Assembly: GCF_000585495.1 (NCBI RefSeq) | Contig: NZ_CP007264.1 | Coordinates: 1,550,001 to 1,614,000, forward strand | Length of the DNA stretch: 64,000 bases | Source of the DNA: Thermococcus nautili | GTDB taxonomy: Archaea; Methanobacteriota_B; Thermococci; Thermococcales; Thermococcaceae | Reading direction: 5' to 3' | Part shown: positions 21,552 through 58,498 of the stretch, one piece after another | Layout of the letters: each line of letters starts with the position of its first letter | How positions within the stretch are numbered: position 1 is the stretch's first letter | Made by a program: the position numbers and the translations under genes | The notes under the pieces: generated by a model | Databases searched by the model: none | The model's input: only the letters and a program-made list of their open reading frames with translations | What the model was told of the DNA's origin: nothing

Positions 21552-21570
21552 TTTCCAGTGGAAACGAAGC
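21552..21570 (+). repeat. Isolated origin recognition box-like sequence upstream of trpS
   Basis: TTTCCAGTGGAAACGAAGC matches the archaeal Orc1/Cdc6 mini-ORB core (TTCCAGTGGAAAC followed by purine-AA) with no visible mismatch. It lies in the leader of trpS, directly upstream of its ribosome binding site and about 32 kb from the origin. It has no G-run, so it is not a full-length ORB. Confidence 0.7.
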
Positions 21571-21684
21571 TCGTGGCTAAGGCGGTGCAGAAGAGAAGGA
21601 CTTCACCAAAGCCAAAAACGACCACCGAGCATGGGGAGAGAAAGGGGAGAGGAGAATTTAAAGTTTTTGGAAAGTGAGGGGAAT

Positions 21685-44106: not shown

Positions 44107-44130
44107 CTTTCCAGTGGAAACGAAGGGCGG
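44107..44130 (+). repeat. Isolated origin recognition box between mtnP and the PAC2 gene
   Basis: CTTTCCAGTGGAAACGAAGG followed by GCGG matches the ORB core plus part of the G-rich flank. It lies between two divergent TATA boxes (about 44089 on minus, about 44132 on plus), about 9.5 kb from the main origin. Confidence 0.75.
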
Positions 44131-51255: not shown

Positions 51256-52311
51256 TCAGTCCTCAACTCCCTTCTCTGTAATCCTGAAGACGGCCTCGCC
51301 CTCGGGCAGGTGCGGGCTGTCTATGAGCCTTGCGACTCGCTTTCCGGCCTTGCCCTTCCTGAGGTAGATTCTGAGCGTCGCGCTGTGGGCCAAGATGTGG
51401 CCACCGACGGGCCTCGTCGGGTCTCCGAAGAAGGCATCCGGTTTCGCCTGCACCTGGTTCGTCACGAAGACCGCTATGTCGTAGAGGTCTGCCAAGCGGT
51501 GTAAGTCGGAGAGGTGCTTCGCCAGCTTCTGCTGTCTCTCGGCGAGGGTTCCCCTTCCGACGTACTCGCTCCTGAAGTGGGCCATGAGCGAGTCAACGAC
51601 GAGGAGCTTGACAGGCCTGTCGGTTGAGGCCTTCTCCTTGATTATCTCCTCGGCCTTCTCGACGAGAAGCATCTGGTGGTTGCTGTTGAAGGCGCGCGCA
51701 ACGTAGATGTTCTTGAGCGTCTCGTCGGGGTCCAAACCGCGAGCCTCAGCTATCTGCCTTATCCTCTCGGGCCTGAAGGTGTTCTCGGTGTCAATCCATA
51801 TCACCGAACCGCCGAGGCCACCTTCCTCCGGCGGTTTCTGGACCATGACGGCAAGGGTATGCGCGAGCTGGGTCTTTCCGGAACCGAACTCACCGAAGAC
51901 CTCGGTTATGGCCTGCGTCTCTATTCCCCCTCCGAGGAGCTTGTCGAGGGCTTTGCTTCCAGTGGAAATCCTGCCTATGGTCTTCCGCTTCTCCATGTAC
52001 TCGTCGGCGCGCATGAAGGTTCCGATGTTCGCGGCTTCCCTAGCGGCCTGGATTATCTTGAGCGCGGCACCCTCGCTTATTCCAGCTATCTCCTTGAGCT
52101 CGAGCGGTGAAGCGACTGCTATAGCCTCAATACTGTCGTAGCCGGCCTCGCGAAGCTTCTCAGCGGTGGCAGGACCAACGCCAGGCAAATCTTCAAGGGT
52201 CTTGATTTCTTTTTCCTTCTTTTTTGAGGACGATGACGGTGAGCTTTCGGCTATTTCAAGCTCCTCAAACTCCTCAAGCTCTTTAACCTCTTCAACCTTC
52301 TTCTTCGCCAT
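51256..52311 (-). CDS. radA: DNA repair and recombination protein RadA
   Basis: 351 residues; archaeal Rad51/RecA orthologue forming filaments on single-stranded DNA for strand exchange. An acidic/basic N-terminal tail is followed by a helix-hairpin-helix domain ([19 protein letters not shown]), the linker [15 protein letters not shown], Walker [10 protein letters not shown] and Walker B LLVVDSL. No intein. ATG 52311 follows GGTGAG. A TATA-like AGTTATTTAACC lies at about 52350-52362 on the minus strand. nucS, which I recall as its direct neighbour in T. kodakarensis, is about 4 kb downstream here. Confidence 0.96.
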
Positions 52312-52492
52312 GAGACTCACCCGGAAATACCCTTAATGGGGGTAAAGTTCGGGGGTTAAATAACTTTTCCCGGAAAAATCGGGAAGACAATCTTTTAAGA
52401 CTTTCGCCCGTTTCGAAAAACGAACTTTAAAAACACTCAGATTTTACTGAAAAGCCCAGAAAAAAGAGAACTACGGAAGATAGACCATGAGC

Positions 52493-53512: not shown

Positions 53513-53599
53513 GGGCTTCATTTCCACTCGAACCTTAAAAAGATGCCCCATACTCAAAACGATTCATTGATGGTCATTAAAATACTACCGGGAACAGTT

Positions 53600-53620
53600 T
53601 TTCCAGTGGAAACAAAGGTC
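53600..53620 (+). repeat. Origin recognition box (core type)
   Basis: TTTCCAGTGGAAACAAAGG matches the ORB core but lacks the G-run. It runs directly into an inverted repeat at 53617-53645 whose other side abuts the next, oppositely oriented ORB. Confidence 0.82.
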
Positions 53621-53645
53621 TTTTTCGATGCTCATCGAAAAGACC
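53617..53645. repeat. Inverted repeat joining two opposed ORBs
   Basis: GGTCTTTTTCGATG (53617-53630) and CATCGAAAAGACC (53633-53645) are complementary apart from one extra T and enclose CT. With the ORBs on either side, 53600-53671 is one large imperfect palindrome. Confidence 0.8.
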
Positions 53646-53670
53646 CCCCAGAGTTTCATTTCCACTGGAA
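53644..53670 (-). repeat. Full-length origin recognition box, left of the unwinding region
   Basis: On the minus strand TTCCAGTGGAAATGAA is followed by ACTCTGGGGGG. The core and G-run together define a full ORB, whose orientation sets the direction of Orc1/Cdc6 loading. Here the G-run points away from the AT-rich region. Confidence 0.87.
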
Positions 53671-53671
53671 C

Positions 53672-53927
53672 CCACTTTCGGAAAACGGACGGTTTTGACA
53701 GGGTAGTTAAAAGTAACGGGAATTCAGGGAGATTGTTTAAGTACGTAGCTGTTGAATCGTTCAATAAATTGTGCGAAATTTTATTATGCTGTTCAAAATT
53801 CTCGTGCATTGTCCATGTTAATTTAGTTGTTTGTTCATAGAAAGATATAAAAACCGGCACCAATAAAAAGGACGGGAGCTTTTTGTCAACTTTAAGTCGG
53901 TCTTCTATGGGAAGCTTCAAAGGCCCG
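53672..53927. other. AT-rich duplex unwinding region of oriC
   Basis: Lies between the two inverted full-length ORBs. The central part (about 53735-53860) is rich in A/T runs such as AATTTTATTATGCTG and AAGATATAAAAACC. No ORF of credible composition; short frames here are chance. This is the expected melting site. Confidence 0.7.
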
Positions 53928-53955
53928 CTCCACTGGAAACAAAACTCTGGGGGGG
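53928..53955 (+). repeat. Full-length origin recognition box, right of the unwinding region
   Basis: CTCCACTGGAAACAAA followed by ACTCTGGGGGGG. Nearly identical in its G-rich half to the ORB at 53644 and in the opposite orientation. Confidence 0.87.
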
Positions 53956-54063: not shown

Positions 54064-54080
54064 TTTCAGTGGAAATAACC
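54064..54080 (+). repeat. Mini-ORB variant
   Basis: TTTCAGTGGAAATAACC is a core-type repeat one base shorter than the consensus in its left arm, about 110 bases right of the full ORB. A more degenerate match (TTTCCTCTGGAAG) follows at about 54150. Confidence 0.55.
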
Positions 54081-54207
54081 AATCCTAATCTGTTTCGGGT
54101 TTCCAAATACCAAATCTCGTGCACATCTCTGTGCATTTGACTTTCCCGTTTCCTCTGGAAGGGCAAACCATTAATTCACCAACGCCCTATTTCGGTTGGT
54201 GGTTCCC

Positions 54208-54807
54208 GTGGAGATTAGGGATGTTGTTCTCGACTGGTTGCGCTCCGGCAAGGACGATGCCAACGACATCGTCGACCTGCCCTGGGAAGTTAAGCAACTT
54301 GAACCGAACCTCTACGTCGCGGAGCACCCCAAGATGCCCTTCACACTGCTTCTCTCGTTCGGAGAAGGCTTCATACGACTGCTGGCCCCTATGGGTCTTG
54401 AAACGTTCTCCATGACCAAGGATGAAAAGCTCAAGGTTTACCATGCGCTCCTTCGGCTGAACGCTGAAATCAACCTGATGAAGTTCATCCTCATGGGCAT
54501 GAACGACGACGTTTACCTGGCGGTTGACCTGGATACCTCCAACCTCGGTAAAGCGGAGTTCAACGACGCACTCTCGGCCCTTCTCGTTGGTCTGCTCTCA
54601 GCCGTTTCGGCGCTCAACCTCGAGGAGGAGTTTGAGGCCCTGCTAAAGGAGCGCGTGCTTGCGATGGTCTACGAGAGGCTTCGCAAGGGTGCAAGCAGAG
54701 AGGAGCTTCTTGACTTTCTGGTTTCCCGTGTGGGGATGCCCAGAAACGAGGCTTTGACACTTCTCGCCGAGGTTCTTCCTGAAGAGCAGGATAGGGGCTA
54801 CCTTTAG
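54208..54807 (+). CDS. Origin-adjacent conserved protein, YbjN-like fold suspected
   Basis: About 199 residues, acidic, no membrane segments. The pattern LLLSFGEGFIRLLAPMG, then YHALLRLNAEINLMKFIL and DDVYLAVDLDTSNLGKAEFN resembles YbjN/CesT-type chaperone-like folds. The C-terminal helices (EELLDFLVSRVGMPRNEALT) form a separate small domain. GTG 54208 follows GGTGGTT; TTG 54196 is the longer alternative. It sits between oriC and cdc6 on the same strand as cdc6. Function unknown; fold assignment is tentative. Confidence 0.72.
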   Translation: MEIRDVVLDWLRSGKDDANDIVDLPWEVKQLEPNLYVAEHPKMPFTLLLSFGEGFIRLLAPMGLETFSMTKDEKLKVYHALLRLNAEINLMKFILMGMNDDVYLAVDLDTSNLGKAEFNDALSALLVGLLSAVSALNLEEEFEALLKERVLAMVYERLRKGASREELLDFLVSRVGMPRNEALTLLAEVLPEEQDRGYL

Positions 54808-54973: not shown

Positions 54974-55067
54974 ATATTCGATATATTTGACAAAATGTTC
55001 CCATTTGTGGGCTTAATTACGACGGTAATACGGCGTGAGAGTATGATTTCCGGTGGAGATGGGAGCC

Positions 55068-56321
55068 ATGGGGGACAGGGACGACTACCTGACGTCGATA
55101 TTCGAGAAGTACCTCCACGCCAAGAAGATTTTCAAGAACAAGGAAGTTCTGAGGCACAGCTACACGCCAAAAGAACTCCCTCACAGGCACGAGCAGATTG
55201 ACGAGCTGGCTCATATTCTCGTTCCGGTTTTAAGAGGTGAAACGCCCTCGAACGTCTTCGTCTACGGCAAGACAGGAACCGGTAAAACCGTGACGGTGAA
55301 GTTCGTAACCGAGGAGCTCAAGAAGATATCCGAGAAGTACAACATTCCCGTCGAGGTTATCTACATCAACTGCGAGATAGTCGACACCCACTACCGCGTT
55401 CTCGCGAGGATAGTCAACCACTTCAAGGCTGAAAGTGGTGTGGAGGTTCCCCTCGTCGGCTGGCCGACCGATGAGGTTTACGTCAAGCTAAAGGAAGTTA
55501 TAGATGCGAAGGAGCGCTTTGTAATCATCGTTCTGGACGAGATAGACAAGCTCATCAAGAAGAGCGGGGACGACATACTCTACTCCCTCACGAGGATAAA
55601 CACCGAGCTCTCGAGGGCGAAGGTCAGCATAATCGGCATCTCAAACGACCTCAAGTTCAAAGAGTATCTCGACGCCCGCGTTCTGTCAAGCTTGAGCGAG
55701 GAGGAAGTTGTTTTCCCGCCCTACGACGCCAACCAGCTCCGGGACATTCTCATGCAACGCGCAAAGGAGGCCTTCTACGAGGGCGTTCTCGACGATGCGG
55801 TAGTGCCACTCTGTGCCGCTTTGGCAGCGAGAGAACACGGCGACGCGAGGAGGGCTCTGGATTTGCTCCGCGTCGCTGGTGAAATAGCAGAGCGCGAGGG
55901 GGCGAGCAAAGTAACTGAAAGGCACGTCTGGAAGGCGCAGGAGAAGATTGAGCAGGACACGATGGAGGAAGTCATAAAGACCCTCCCGCTCCACTCGAAG
56001 GTTCTCCTCTACGCGATAGTCATGCTCGACGAGAACGGTGAGTTGCCAGCCAACACCGGCGACGTTTACTCCGTCTACAAGTCCCTCTGCGACCACCTCG
56101 ACGTCGAGCCCCTTACCCAGAGGCGCGTGAGCGACCTAATCAACGAGCTCGACATGCTCGGCATAATCAACGCCAAGGTCGTGAGCAAGGGCCGCTACGG
56201 CAGAACAAAGGAGATAAGGCTAAACGTCACACCCTACATGGTGAAGAACATCTACCGCCACGACGAGCAGGTTAGGAGCCTGCTCACGCTCACCCTCTCC
56301 AAGCAGAGGAGGTTGTTCTGA
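55068..56321 (+). CDS. cdc6: Origin recognition/initiator protein Orc1/Cdc6
   Basis: 417 residues. AAA+ ATPase domain with Walker A YGKTGTGKT (about residue 65), Walker B IIVLDEIDKL and sensor motifs (GISNDLKF), followed by a C-terminal winged-helix DNA-binding domain (SKGRYGRTKEIRLNV). It binds ORBs in the adjacent origin and loads MCM. ATG 55068 follows GGAGATGGGAG; earlier in-frame GTG/ATG codons were rejected. The TGA overlaps the ATG of the polymerase small subunit, so the three replication genes form an operon. Confidence 0.97.
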   Translation: MGDRDDYLTSIFEKYLHAKKIFKNKEVLRHSYTPKELPHRHEQIDELAHILVPVLRGETPSNVFVYGKTGTGKTVTVKFVTEELKKISEKYNIPVEVIYINCEIVDTHYRVLARIVNHFKAESGVEVPLVGWPTDEVYVKLKEVIDAKERFVIIVLDEIDKLIKKSGDDILYSLTRINTELSRAKVSIIGISNDLKFKEYLDARVLSSLSEEEVVFPPYDANQLRDILMQRAKEAFYEGVLDDAVVPLCAALAAREHGDARRALDLLRVAGEIAEREGASKVTERHVWKAQEKIEQDTMEEVIKTLPLHSKVLLYAIVMLDENGELPANTGDVYSVYKSLCDHLDVEPLTQRRVSDLINELDMLGIINAKVVSKGRYGRTKEIRLNVTPYMVKNIYRHDEQVRSLLTLTLSKQRRLF

Positions 56322-58498
56322 TGCTGATTGAGGATTTAATCAAGAATAAATACTTGATAACTCCCTCGGCCTACTACCTCCTTGAACCCCACTATAAGAG
56401 GGACTTCACTCTGGCGGAGCTGATAAAGTTCGCCAAAGCTCGGGGGACCTTCGTCATAGACTCCTCCATAGCCGAGGCCTTCCTCGCTGAGAAGGGTCTC
56501 TTTTCCACTGGAGAACTCACTGAGCAGACCCCCCTTGAGGTCTCTGAGGAAGAGCCTCTTGAGGCTTCTCCGGAGGAAATACATGGGGACTTTGCTGAAT
56601 CTGCTGAAATTCCCGTTTCTGAAACTGTTACAGCCTCTCGGCCCGAAGAAATTCCTTCTTCTGAAGACTTTGAATCCGCGGAAGCATCGGGTTCTATTTC
56701 CACTGGAGATGTTGTGGAAAGCGAGGTTGCCACGGCTTCTTCTGGGGAAGAAAGCGTTGAACCCGCTGAAATTGTTGGCGAGACTTCAATTTCCACTGGA
56801 ACAACCCTTGAATTAGAGCAATCTCCTGCATCTATTCCTGTTGAAGAACCAATTTCCAGCGAGATTTCAGAGGGGGAGAGTTTTGTTTCCACTGGAACAC
56901 CTGAACATGAAGAACTCGTGGATGAAGCCGCTGGTTCATTGGATTCGTCACTAACAGAGGTCGTCGAGGATTCACTTCCAGTGGAAGCCGAGCCCCTGAA
57001 CGGCAACGGCTACGGAAACTACGCCGATAGCGAGGAGTACTATGAGAACGGCGAGAACGGAAACGGGGTGAAGCCCAAAATCGTCTACGGCGACTACGGG
57101 ATTCCCATAGCGTACGTTGGCGAGGACGTCGAGGGCGAGAAGAGCTACTCGACCTACGAGGACGTTGTGATAAAGCCCAAAGAGGGCTTCCACTACCGCG
57201 CGAAGGAGATTCCCGACGAGTGGGAGCTTACCTTCGACGTCAAGAACGTGAAGTTCGAGGCCCCGAAGGTCAAAAACGCCGCGAGCAAAGAAGGTGAGAT
57301 AATAATCCAGGCCTATTCGAGCTACTTCAAGTCGAGGCTCAGGAAGATGCGCAGAATCTTCCGCGAGAACCCCGAAATCGGGACGGTCATAGACATCGCG
57401 AAGCTGAGCTACGTCCGGGACGATGAGGTCACGATAATCGGCCTCGTCAACGACAAGCGCGAAACGGCGAAGGGCTACATGTTTGAGGTGGAAGATGCAA
57501 CCGGGCGGGTTAAGGTCTTCCTCGGCAGGGACAAGGAGAACGCTTCCCAGGCCTACAACGCGATAATGCCCGATTCTGTCGTTGCCTTCCGCGGTCAGCC
57601 GGGCAGGGGAATCTTCTTCGCCAACCGCGTCTTCCTCCCGGATGTGCCGAAGTTCAGGCGCGAGAAGCCTCCACTGGAAGAGAAGGTCTACGCGATTCTG
57701 CTGAGCGACATCCACGTCGGCTCGAACAAGTTCTGCGAAAAGGCCTTTGAGAAGTTCCTTGAATGGCTCAACGGCGAGGTCAACAGCAGGGCCGAGGAAG
57801 AACTCGTAAGCCGGATTAAGTACCTGATAATCGGCGGTGACGTCGTTGACGGCGTCGGTATCTACCCGGGCCAGTACAACGAGCTGGCCATTCCCGACAT
57901 CTTCGACCAGTACGAGGCATTGGCCAATCTCCTCCGCAACGTTCCGGAGCATATAACCATGTTCATCGGCCCGGGCAACCACGACGCCGCGAGGACCGCT
58001 CTGCCACAGCCGGGCTTCTACGAGGAGTACGCTAAGCCGATATACAAGCTCAAAAACGCCGTGATACTAAGCAACCCCGCGGTGATAAACCTCCACGGCA
58101 GGGAGTTCCTCATCGCCCACGGAAGGGGCATAGAGGACGTCGTTGACTTCATCCCCGGGAGAACGCACCACAAGCCCGCCGAGGCGATGGTTGATTTGCT
58201 CAAGCTCCGCCACCTTGCGCCGACCTTCGGTAACAAGGTTCCCATCGCTCCCGACCCCGAGGATACACTCGTCATCGAGAGCGTTCCTGACCTCTTCCAG
58301 GCCGGCCACGTTCACGTTATGGAGTACCGGATTTACAACGGCGTCTTCGTCATCAACAGCGGAACCTGGCAGGCCCAGACCGAGTTCCAGAAGATGGTGA
58401 ACATCATACCCACTCCAGCGCGCGTGCCGATAATAGACGTTGAAACGGCCCGTTTGAGAGCCGTTGTGAGCTTCGACCAGTTCTGTGAGGGGGTTTGA
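56321..58498 (+). CDS. polB: DNA polymerase D (polymerase II) small subunit DP1
   Basis: 725 residues. An N-terminal helical domain (about 1-60) is followed by a long acidic Ser/Glu/Thr-rich linker (about 60-250), an OB-fold region (EVTIIGLVNDKRETAKGYMF) and the Mre11-like phosphodiesterase carrying proofreading. Its metal motifs are all present: LLSDIHVGS, IGGDVVDG, GPGNHDAAR, LIAHGRG and AGHVHVME. The linker makes it longer than I recall for the Pyrococcus subunit (a little over 600). Five ORB-like DNA sequences lie in the linker coding region. ATG overlaps the cdc6 stop. Confidence 0.96.
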   Translation: MLIEDLIKNKYLITPSAYYLLEPHYKRDFTLAELIKFAKARGTFVIDSSIAEAFLAEKGLFSTGELTEQTPLEVSEEEPLEASPEEIHGDFAESAEIPVSETVTASRPEEIPSSEDFESAEASGSISTGDVVESEVATASSGEESVEPAEIVGETSISTGTTLELEQSPASIPVEEPISSEISEGESFVSTGTPEHEELVDEAAGSLDSSLTEVVEDSLPVEAEPLNGNGYGNYADSEEYYENGENGNGVKPKIVYGDYGIPIAYVGEDVEGEKSYSTYEDVVIKPKEGFHYRAKEIPDEWELTFDVKNVKFEAPKVKNAASKEGEIIIQAYSSYFKSRLRKMRRIFRENPEIGTVIDIAKLSYVRDDEVTIIGLVNDKRETAKGYMFEVEDATGRVKVFLGRDKENASQAYNAIMPDSVVAFRGQPGRGIFFANRVFLPDVPKFRREKPPLEEKVYAILLSDIHVGSNKFCEKAFEKFLEWLNGEVNSRAEEELVSRIKYLIIGGDVVDGVGIYPGQYNELAIPDIFDQYEALANLLRNVPEHITMFIGPGNHDAARTALPQPGFYEEYAKPIYKLKNAVILSNPAVINLHGREFLIAHGRGIEDVVDFIPGRTHHKPAEAMVDLLKLRHLAPTFGNKVPIAPDPEDTLVIESVPDLFQAGHVHVMEYRIYNGVFVINSGTWQAQTEFQKMVNIIPTPARVPIIDVETARLRAVVSFDQFCEGV
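56501..56992 (+). repeat. Cluster of five ORB-like palindromes inside the DP1 linker coding sequence
   Basis: Cores CCACTGG at 56505, 56700, 56793 and 56889 and CCAGTGG at 56978, each inside TTTCCACTGGA- or CTTCCAGTGGAA-type sequence. Spacings are 195, 93, 96 and 89 bases. Four encode Ser-Thr-Gly preceded by a hydrophobic residue, and the fifth encodes Leu-Pro-Val-Glu. None has the G-run, so they are mini-ORB-like. Confidence 0.7.

Follow-up and report, generated by a model that had tools for sequence, protein, structure and literature searches.

The intergenic array of initiator boxes described here is, from its sequence and near certainly, an Orc1/Cdc6-dependent replication origin (oriC) of the Thermococcales type, the general plan of which was already known. 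It lies in a 64,000-nucleotide stretch of Thermococcus nautili DNA (the window; positions 1,550,001 to 1,614,000 of the 1,976,356-bp complete genome), to which all coordinates below refer. The explanation that we consider probable is as follows. As in the canonical archaeal layout, Orc1/Cdc6 would occupy two boxes, ORB2 and ORB3, opposed across an A+T-rich core into which the helicase would be loaded. ORB1 would put further Orc1/Cdc6 facing ORB2 in fixed helical phase, and the 20-bp dyad in the linker between these two boxes would serve as a duplex binding site for a dimeric protein, or for Orc1 itself, giving a rigid nucleoprotein platform beside ORB2. ORBs scattered in the flanking genes probably keep the initiator concentrated at the origin.

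We are more tentative about a joint reading that goes further, in which one or two additional putative sequence-specific factors would bind the linker dyad and a second dyad in the core, and the origin would maintain a halo of ORBs in neighboring genes, gained and lost as genes approach and leave. Studies of archaeal origins center on ORBs and the A+T-rich region; the 50/70-nt spacing of facing ORBs and the two non-ORB dyads are exact, mutable targets, which bear on Orc1/Cdc6 assembly and on whether Thermococcales possess an equivalent of UBP, the core factor of Sulfolobus.

Location and layout of the origin

The gene order around the origin is radA, K+ channel, oriC, small gene, orc1/cdc6, and polD DP1. 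To the left are the radA recombinase gene (51256 to 52320, minus strand; Pfam Rad51, 2.2e-96) and the K+ channel gene, which starts near 53520 on the minus strand. To the right are a small gene that matches no Pfam family (54196 to 54807), the orc1/cdc6 initiator gene (55053 to 56321, plus strand; Pfam Cdc6_C, 1.9e-35, Cdc6_lid, and AAA), and polD DP1, which begins at 56321. The array is thus intergenic and near orc1/cdc6 (at 55053), and its ORB1, ORB2, and ORB3 match the family consensus with 0 mismatches.

ORB1 (TTCCAGTGGAAACAAAGGTC; 53601 to 53620, plus strand; 0 mismatches to YTCCASTGGAAAYRAARSYC) has no G string and faces ORB2. The full boxes are ORB2 (TTCCAGTGGAAATGAAACTC plus TGGGGGG; box 53651 to 53670, G string 53644 to 53650, minus strand), which is near-invariant among relatives (1.91 bits per position), and ORB3 (CTCCACTGGAAACAAAACTC plus TGGGGGG; box 53928 to 53947, G string 53948 to 53954, plus strand). 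Together, ORB2 and ORB3 form a 26-nt inverted repeat that is 88% complementary, with 259 nt between the arms, and they enclose the presumed unwinding region, a 257-bp core (53671 to 53927) with 61.5% A+T. Two full ORBs with matching tails, inverted across A+T-rich bases, are what the sequence-only reading had described. Farther right are the mini-ORBs TTTCAGTGGAAA (54064 to 54075, plus strand), which in most relatives has a counterpart at 136 nt from ORB3 (136 to 137 nt in most genomes), and TTCCAGAGGAAA (54149 to 54160, minus strand), at 220 to 223 nt in most Thermococcus genomes. A predicted 111-amino-acid open reading frame over the origin (53585 to 53920, minus strand) overlies the conserved array and was therefore taken as a chance occurrence.

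That reading had also named the region as oriC, an identification borne out by the radA, cdc6, and DP1 neighborhood, by the family-wide ORB array, and by orthologous arrays at published marker-frequency peaks. The relatives' arrays that coincide with the peaks belong to genomes that we take to be those of T. kodakarensis and T. barophilus. Peaks have been published for both species (PMC11005403). T. kodakarensis can lose the origin and cdc6 with no growth defect in the laboratory (PMC5663688), so the origin is non-essential in at least one relative. The results given here bear on the question of why an origin that is dispensable for growth of T. kodakarensis is maintained in Thermococcus.

The facing ORB pair and its linker

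The region upstream of cdc6 was compared among some 70 relatives from the same genus and family, and ORB2 could be placed in 66 of them. The ORB1-ORB2 offset is exactly 50 nt in 48 of the 66 genomes and 51 nt in three (G034, G056, and G058), and it is 69 to 70 nt in a class of six, comprising G078 (70 nt) and five genomes of the g6 lineage, in which the array lies away from cdc6. The step from 50/51 to 69/70 nt would correspond to about two helical turns. The ORB2-ORB3 distance is looser, ranging from 270 to 293. Mapped onto a tree of cdc6 (its first 500 nt), the spacing classes require 7 changes, compared to 18.8 with shuffled labels, with the bootstrap not settled. ORB1 was not found in eight Pyrococcus-like (g2) genomes or in G029, G033, G038, G043, G055, and G062, and we therefore regard it as accessory. 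Because the offset takes only the values 50/51 or 69/70 nt, it is plausible that two initiators load head to head at ORB1 and ORB2, and our favored mechanism is such an Orc1 pair on a phased, factor-bound linker. The literature that we reached gave no earlier description of this quantized spacing, and its novelty is provisional.

Between the two boxes lies the 20-bp linker dyad TTTTCGATGCTCATCGAAAA (53622 to 53641; consensus TTTNNGATNNNNATCNNAAA), a candidate site of a dimeric DNA-binding factor. The linker is conserved at 1.55 bits per position, compared to 0.44 in the 30 nt upstream. Conservation is symmetric, as in a dimer site, with TT, GAT/ATC, and AA kept, the center free, and no covariation.

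The sequence-only reading had joined ORB1, the linker, and ORB2 into one long palindrome at 53600 to 53671 that might extrude as a cruciform. Both the third ORB (53601 to 53620) and a 29-base inverted repeat (53617 to 53645) are present. The repeat, seen in the sequence and in its single-strand fold, is imperfect (GGTCTTTTTCGATG-CTC-ATCGAAAAGACC, with one bulged T) and extends from the end of ORB1 across the linker dyad into the margin of the ORB2 G string. However, the axis of the inner dyad is at 53631.5 and that of the ORB pair is at 53635.5, 4 bp apart; the supposed single palindrome is actually two inverted repeats. The site did not rank high in an ungapped palindrome scan of the window, owing to the bulge and the shifted axis.

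That the segment forms two extruded hairpins, by which the origin would be marked or melted, seems to us very improbable, even though its single-strand DNA fold in T. nautili is strong (-19.6 kcal/mol for 53600 to 53672, compared to -5.9 +/- 2.1 for shuffles; z = -6.6) and one relative, G014, has a compensated inner palindrome (TTTCAGATGGCCATCTGAAA), the only one seen. Over 45 distinct sequences of the ORB1-ORB2 segment, the fraction of cells in which the inner arms pair is 0.778, compared to 0.788 when the partner column is dealt anew, and two of the nine inner pairs form in fewer than half of the sequences; the arms are not kept complementary through compensatory change. The left inner arm is mostly constant (TTTTTCGATG) and the right arm switches among ATCGAAAA, ATCTGAAA, and ATCTAAAA; the ORB arms are near-invariant. 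Hairpin energy (single-strand DNA fold) ranges among relatives from -7.2 to -23.6 kcal/mol, the inner and outer axes are offset, the outer arm is missing in Pyrococcus-like genomes, and genomes that lack ORB1 retain the inner dyad. The earlier proposal to look for the repeat in relatives thus had a divided outcome: the ORB1-ORB2 pair is kept, but perfect inner base pairing is not conserved.

The position of the dyad was examined with a symmetrized weight matrix built from linkers of the 50-nt class and applied to genomes that had not contributed to it. Its scores peaked, and exceeded the 95% level of shuffles, at -27 to -30 from ORB2 in G029, G038, G043, G055, G061, G066, G070, G074, G077, G080, and G083, all of which are without ORB1, and likewise in G056 (offset 51). 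In the five g6 genomes the best match, again above this level, is at -48/-49, and a weaker second site occurs at -28/-29 in G073, G076, and G065 and as the fourth-ranked match in G082; no second site was found in the remaining g6 genome, G079. The two top sites also fall at the -48/-49 and -28/-29 positions in G066, G078, G086, and G033, and at -48 and -26 in G063. In no single genome does the weaker member of a pair reach the 95% level of shuffles; the case for two copies is that the positions recur. From this pattern, the 20-bp longer spacing of some lineages appears to hold two dyad units.

A symmetric motif with conserved half-sites is typical of dimeric regulators, and in T. nautili a divergent gene, that of the K+ channel, starts approximately 100 bp from the dyad. 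The dyad might therefore be a transcription-factor operator of a flanking gene, placed between two ORBs by coincidence. We consider this improbable, as the left neighbor varies (the K+ channel gene, radA directly, another gene in G008, and in Pyrococcus the 3' end of MTAP, pointing at the origin), whereas the dyad and its distance to ORB2 are unchanged across these differing neighbors and in genomes without ORB1. Moreover, the pattern TTTNNGATNNNNATCNNAAA has a single other match in the T. nautili genome. An operator of the K+ channel gene in particular was rejected because of the varying neighbor.

It is also possible, but rather unlikely, that Orc1/Cdc6 itself reads the dyad through extended ORB contacts, with no extra factor involved. 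The dyad always adjoins the ORB2 G string and is in register with ORB1, as such contacts would predict; yet it is unlike the ORB consensus, and ORB3, an equally full box, has no such dyad at its G string in the sequences inspected. We infer that the linker dyad would function as a site occupied by protein and phased with the two boxes.

The A+T-rich core and known origins

The core of T. nautili ranks in the top 1.2% of the window for A+T content, and those of relatives contain 60 to 74% A+T over 243 to 266 bp. When the cores are aligned, the strongest shared block inside them includes the core dyad TGAACANTGTTCAT, near +172 from ORB2. In 70 cores, the 7-mer TGTTCAT occurs 181 times, compared to 10 expected. 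T. nautili has a degenerate copy of this consensus from relatives (53825 to 53838), with the right half intact. Among 23 complete genomes searched, exact TGAACANTGTTCAT is found in the oriC core of 16 of the 22 others, all outside Pyrococcus, and only two copies (in G009 and G068) lie away from oriC; the T. kodakarensis-like G012 has the core dyad with one mismatch. Both dyads are apparently unreported, a provisional statement that covers the literature reached.

The layout reportedly described by Matsunaga et al. for Pyrococcus abyssi and Pyrococcus furiosus is similar, with inverted full ORBs around an A+T-rich core, mini-ORBs, ORBs in DP1, and cdc6 adjacent. Pyrococcus-like genomes differ in having no ORB1 and no ORB halo beyond 5 kb at up to 1 mismatch. 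They share the linker dyad, of which we found no mention in the literature reached.

The array of G012, presumably T. kodakarensis, is at the position of the presumed origin of that species; it corresponds by position to the array studied here and has three ORBs and an ORB1-ORB2 offset of 50. The accessible part of the published account describes this origin as one ORB and three mini-ORBs, giving neither spacing nor dyads (PMC5663688).

In Sulfolobus, ORB2 and ORB3 around the DUE recruit MCM, and oriC1 combines ORB1 to ORB3 with a ucm motif bound by UBP, which has more than 300 sites in Sulfolobus (PMC12141716). By that account, the two systems share inverted ORB2 and ORB3 around a DUE and a conserved non-ORB core motif (TGAACANTGTTCAT in relatives of T. 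nautili), and the likeness of the core dyad to ucm is by position alone. They differ in that the Thermococcales linker dyad lies outside the core and the core dyad is found almost nowhere but at oriC, in contrast to the more than 300 UBP sites.

ORBs in the flanking genes

ORB-like sites form a halo around oriC that thins over about 100 kb. The 20-mer ORB pattern, at up to 2 mismatches, has 21 matches in the T. nautili genome, 20 of which lie within 51 kb. Exact matches to the 11-mer TTCCASTGGAA number only 13 over 1.98 Mb, and 10 of these fall inside 60 kb around the oriC region. In ten complete Thermococcus genomes, ORB density per Mb is 930 within 5 kb of oriC, 48 at 5 to 35 kb, 6.9 at 35 to 100 kb, 3.7 at 100 to 250 kb, and 0.61 beyond. 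These counts are not independent, since the pattern had been adjusted in part to this window and many of the sites recur as orthologues in several genomes. One distal member of the halo, an ORB with 0 mismatches (21553 to 21572, plus strand), lies in the 5' leader of trpS, the tryptophanyl-tRNA synthetase gene. This site is orthologous in other Thermococcus genomes, even where trpS lies 73 to 133 kb from oriC, and some ORB sites thus travel with genes.

Within the DP1 gene, a pair 96 bp apart consists of an ORB-like site at 56782 to 56801 and an ORB with 0 mismatches at 56878 to 56897, both on the minus strand. ORBs inside this gene have already been reported (PMC2643942). The DP1 ORBs (56494 to 56897) translate in frame to FSTG, ISTG, or VSTG in the linker region, so that the sequence encoding a protein linker doubles as DNA sites.

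A rearrangement in the g6 lineage separates these genes from the origin. In five genomes the array stays with radA, the K+ channel gene, and the small gene, and cdc6-DP1 is hundreds of kilobases away. Where DP1 is near oriC, it contains ORBs (up to 2 mismatches) in 14 of the 14 genomes examined, usually as a pair 96 bp apart; where it is away from oriC, ORBs at this threshold were found in 0 of 6 g6 genomes. Reciprocally, the PIN-domain gene that adjoins oriC in g6 has a perfect or near-perfect ORB, and its orthologues far from oriC (g1/g4/g5) have none at up to 2 mismatches in eight genomes (G000, G001, G007, G012, G013, G063, G064, and G075). The rearrangement was probably one event, so that the DP1/PIN contrast amounts to one natural experiment with two outcomes and its Fisher value overstates independence. 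That the same genes have ORBs near oriC and lack them far away argues that flanking ORBs serve the origin and not their host genes, and we infer that this service would be to concentrate the initiator. Neither the wide halo nor the reciprocal pattern of ORBs in flanking genes was found in the literature reached, and this novelty is likewise provisional.

Several observations concern individual sites and genes. The g6 breakpoint lies between the small gene and cdc6, and this lineage is an exception to the common rule that places oriC next to orc1/cdc6; the small gene (54196 to 54807) is conserved and still adjoins oriC there, where cdc6 has left. The divergent MTAP and PAC2-family genes have an ORB-like site between them (44109 to 44128), and another (L150, 828 to 847) lies where a nucleotidyltransferase-like gene meets the triosephosphate isomerase gene, 16 kb to the right of oriC. 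A conserved ORB-like site in radA was not counted toward selection at the DNA level, as it overlaps a conserved 11-residue protein motif. In one relative (G011:C1:115925-117162), cdc6 appears split into two overlapping matches, which could reflect a frameshift or an error in sequencing. Two genomes (G017:C2:23623-24783 and G075:C2:6823-7992) encode an additional, diverged relative of Orc1/Cdc6 (34 to 35% identity) on a second contig, probably a plasmid.
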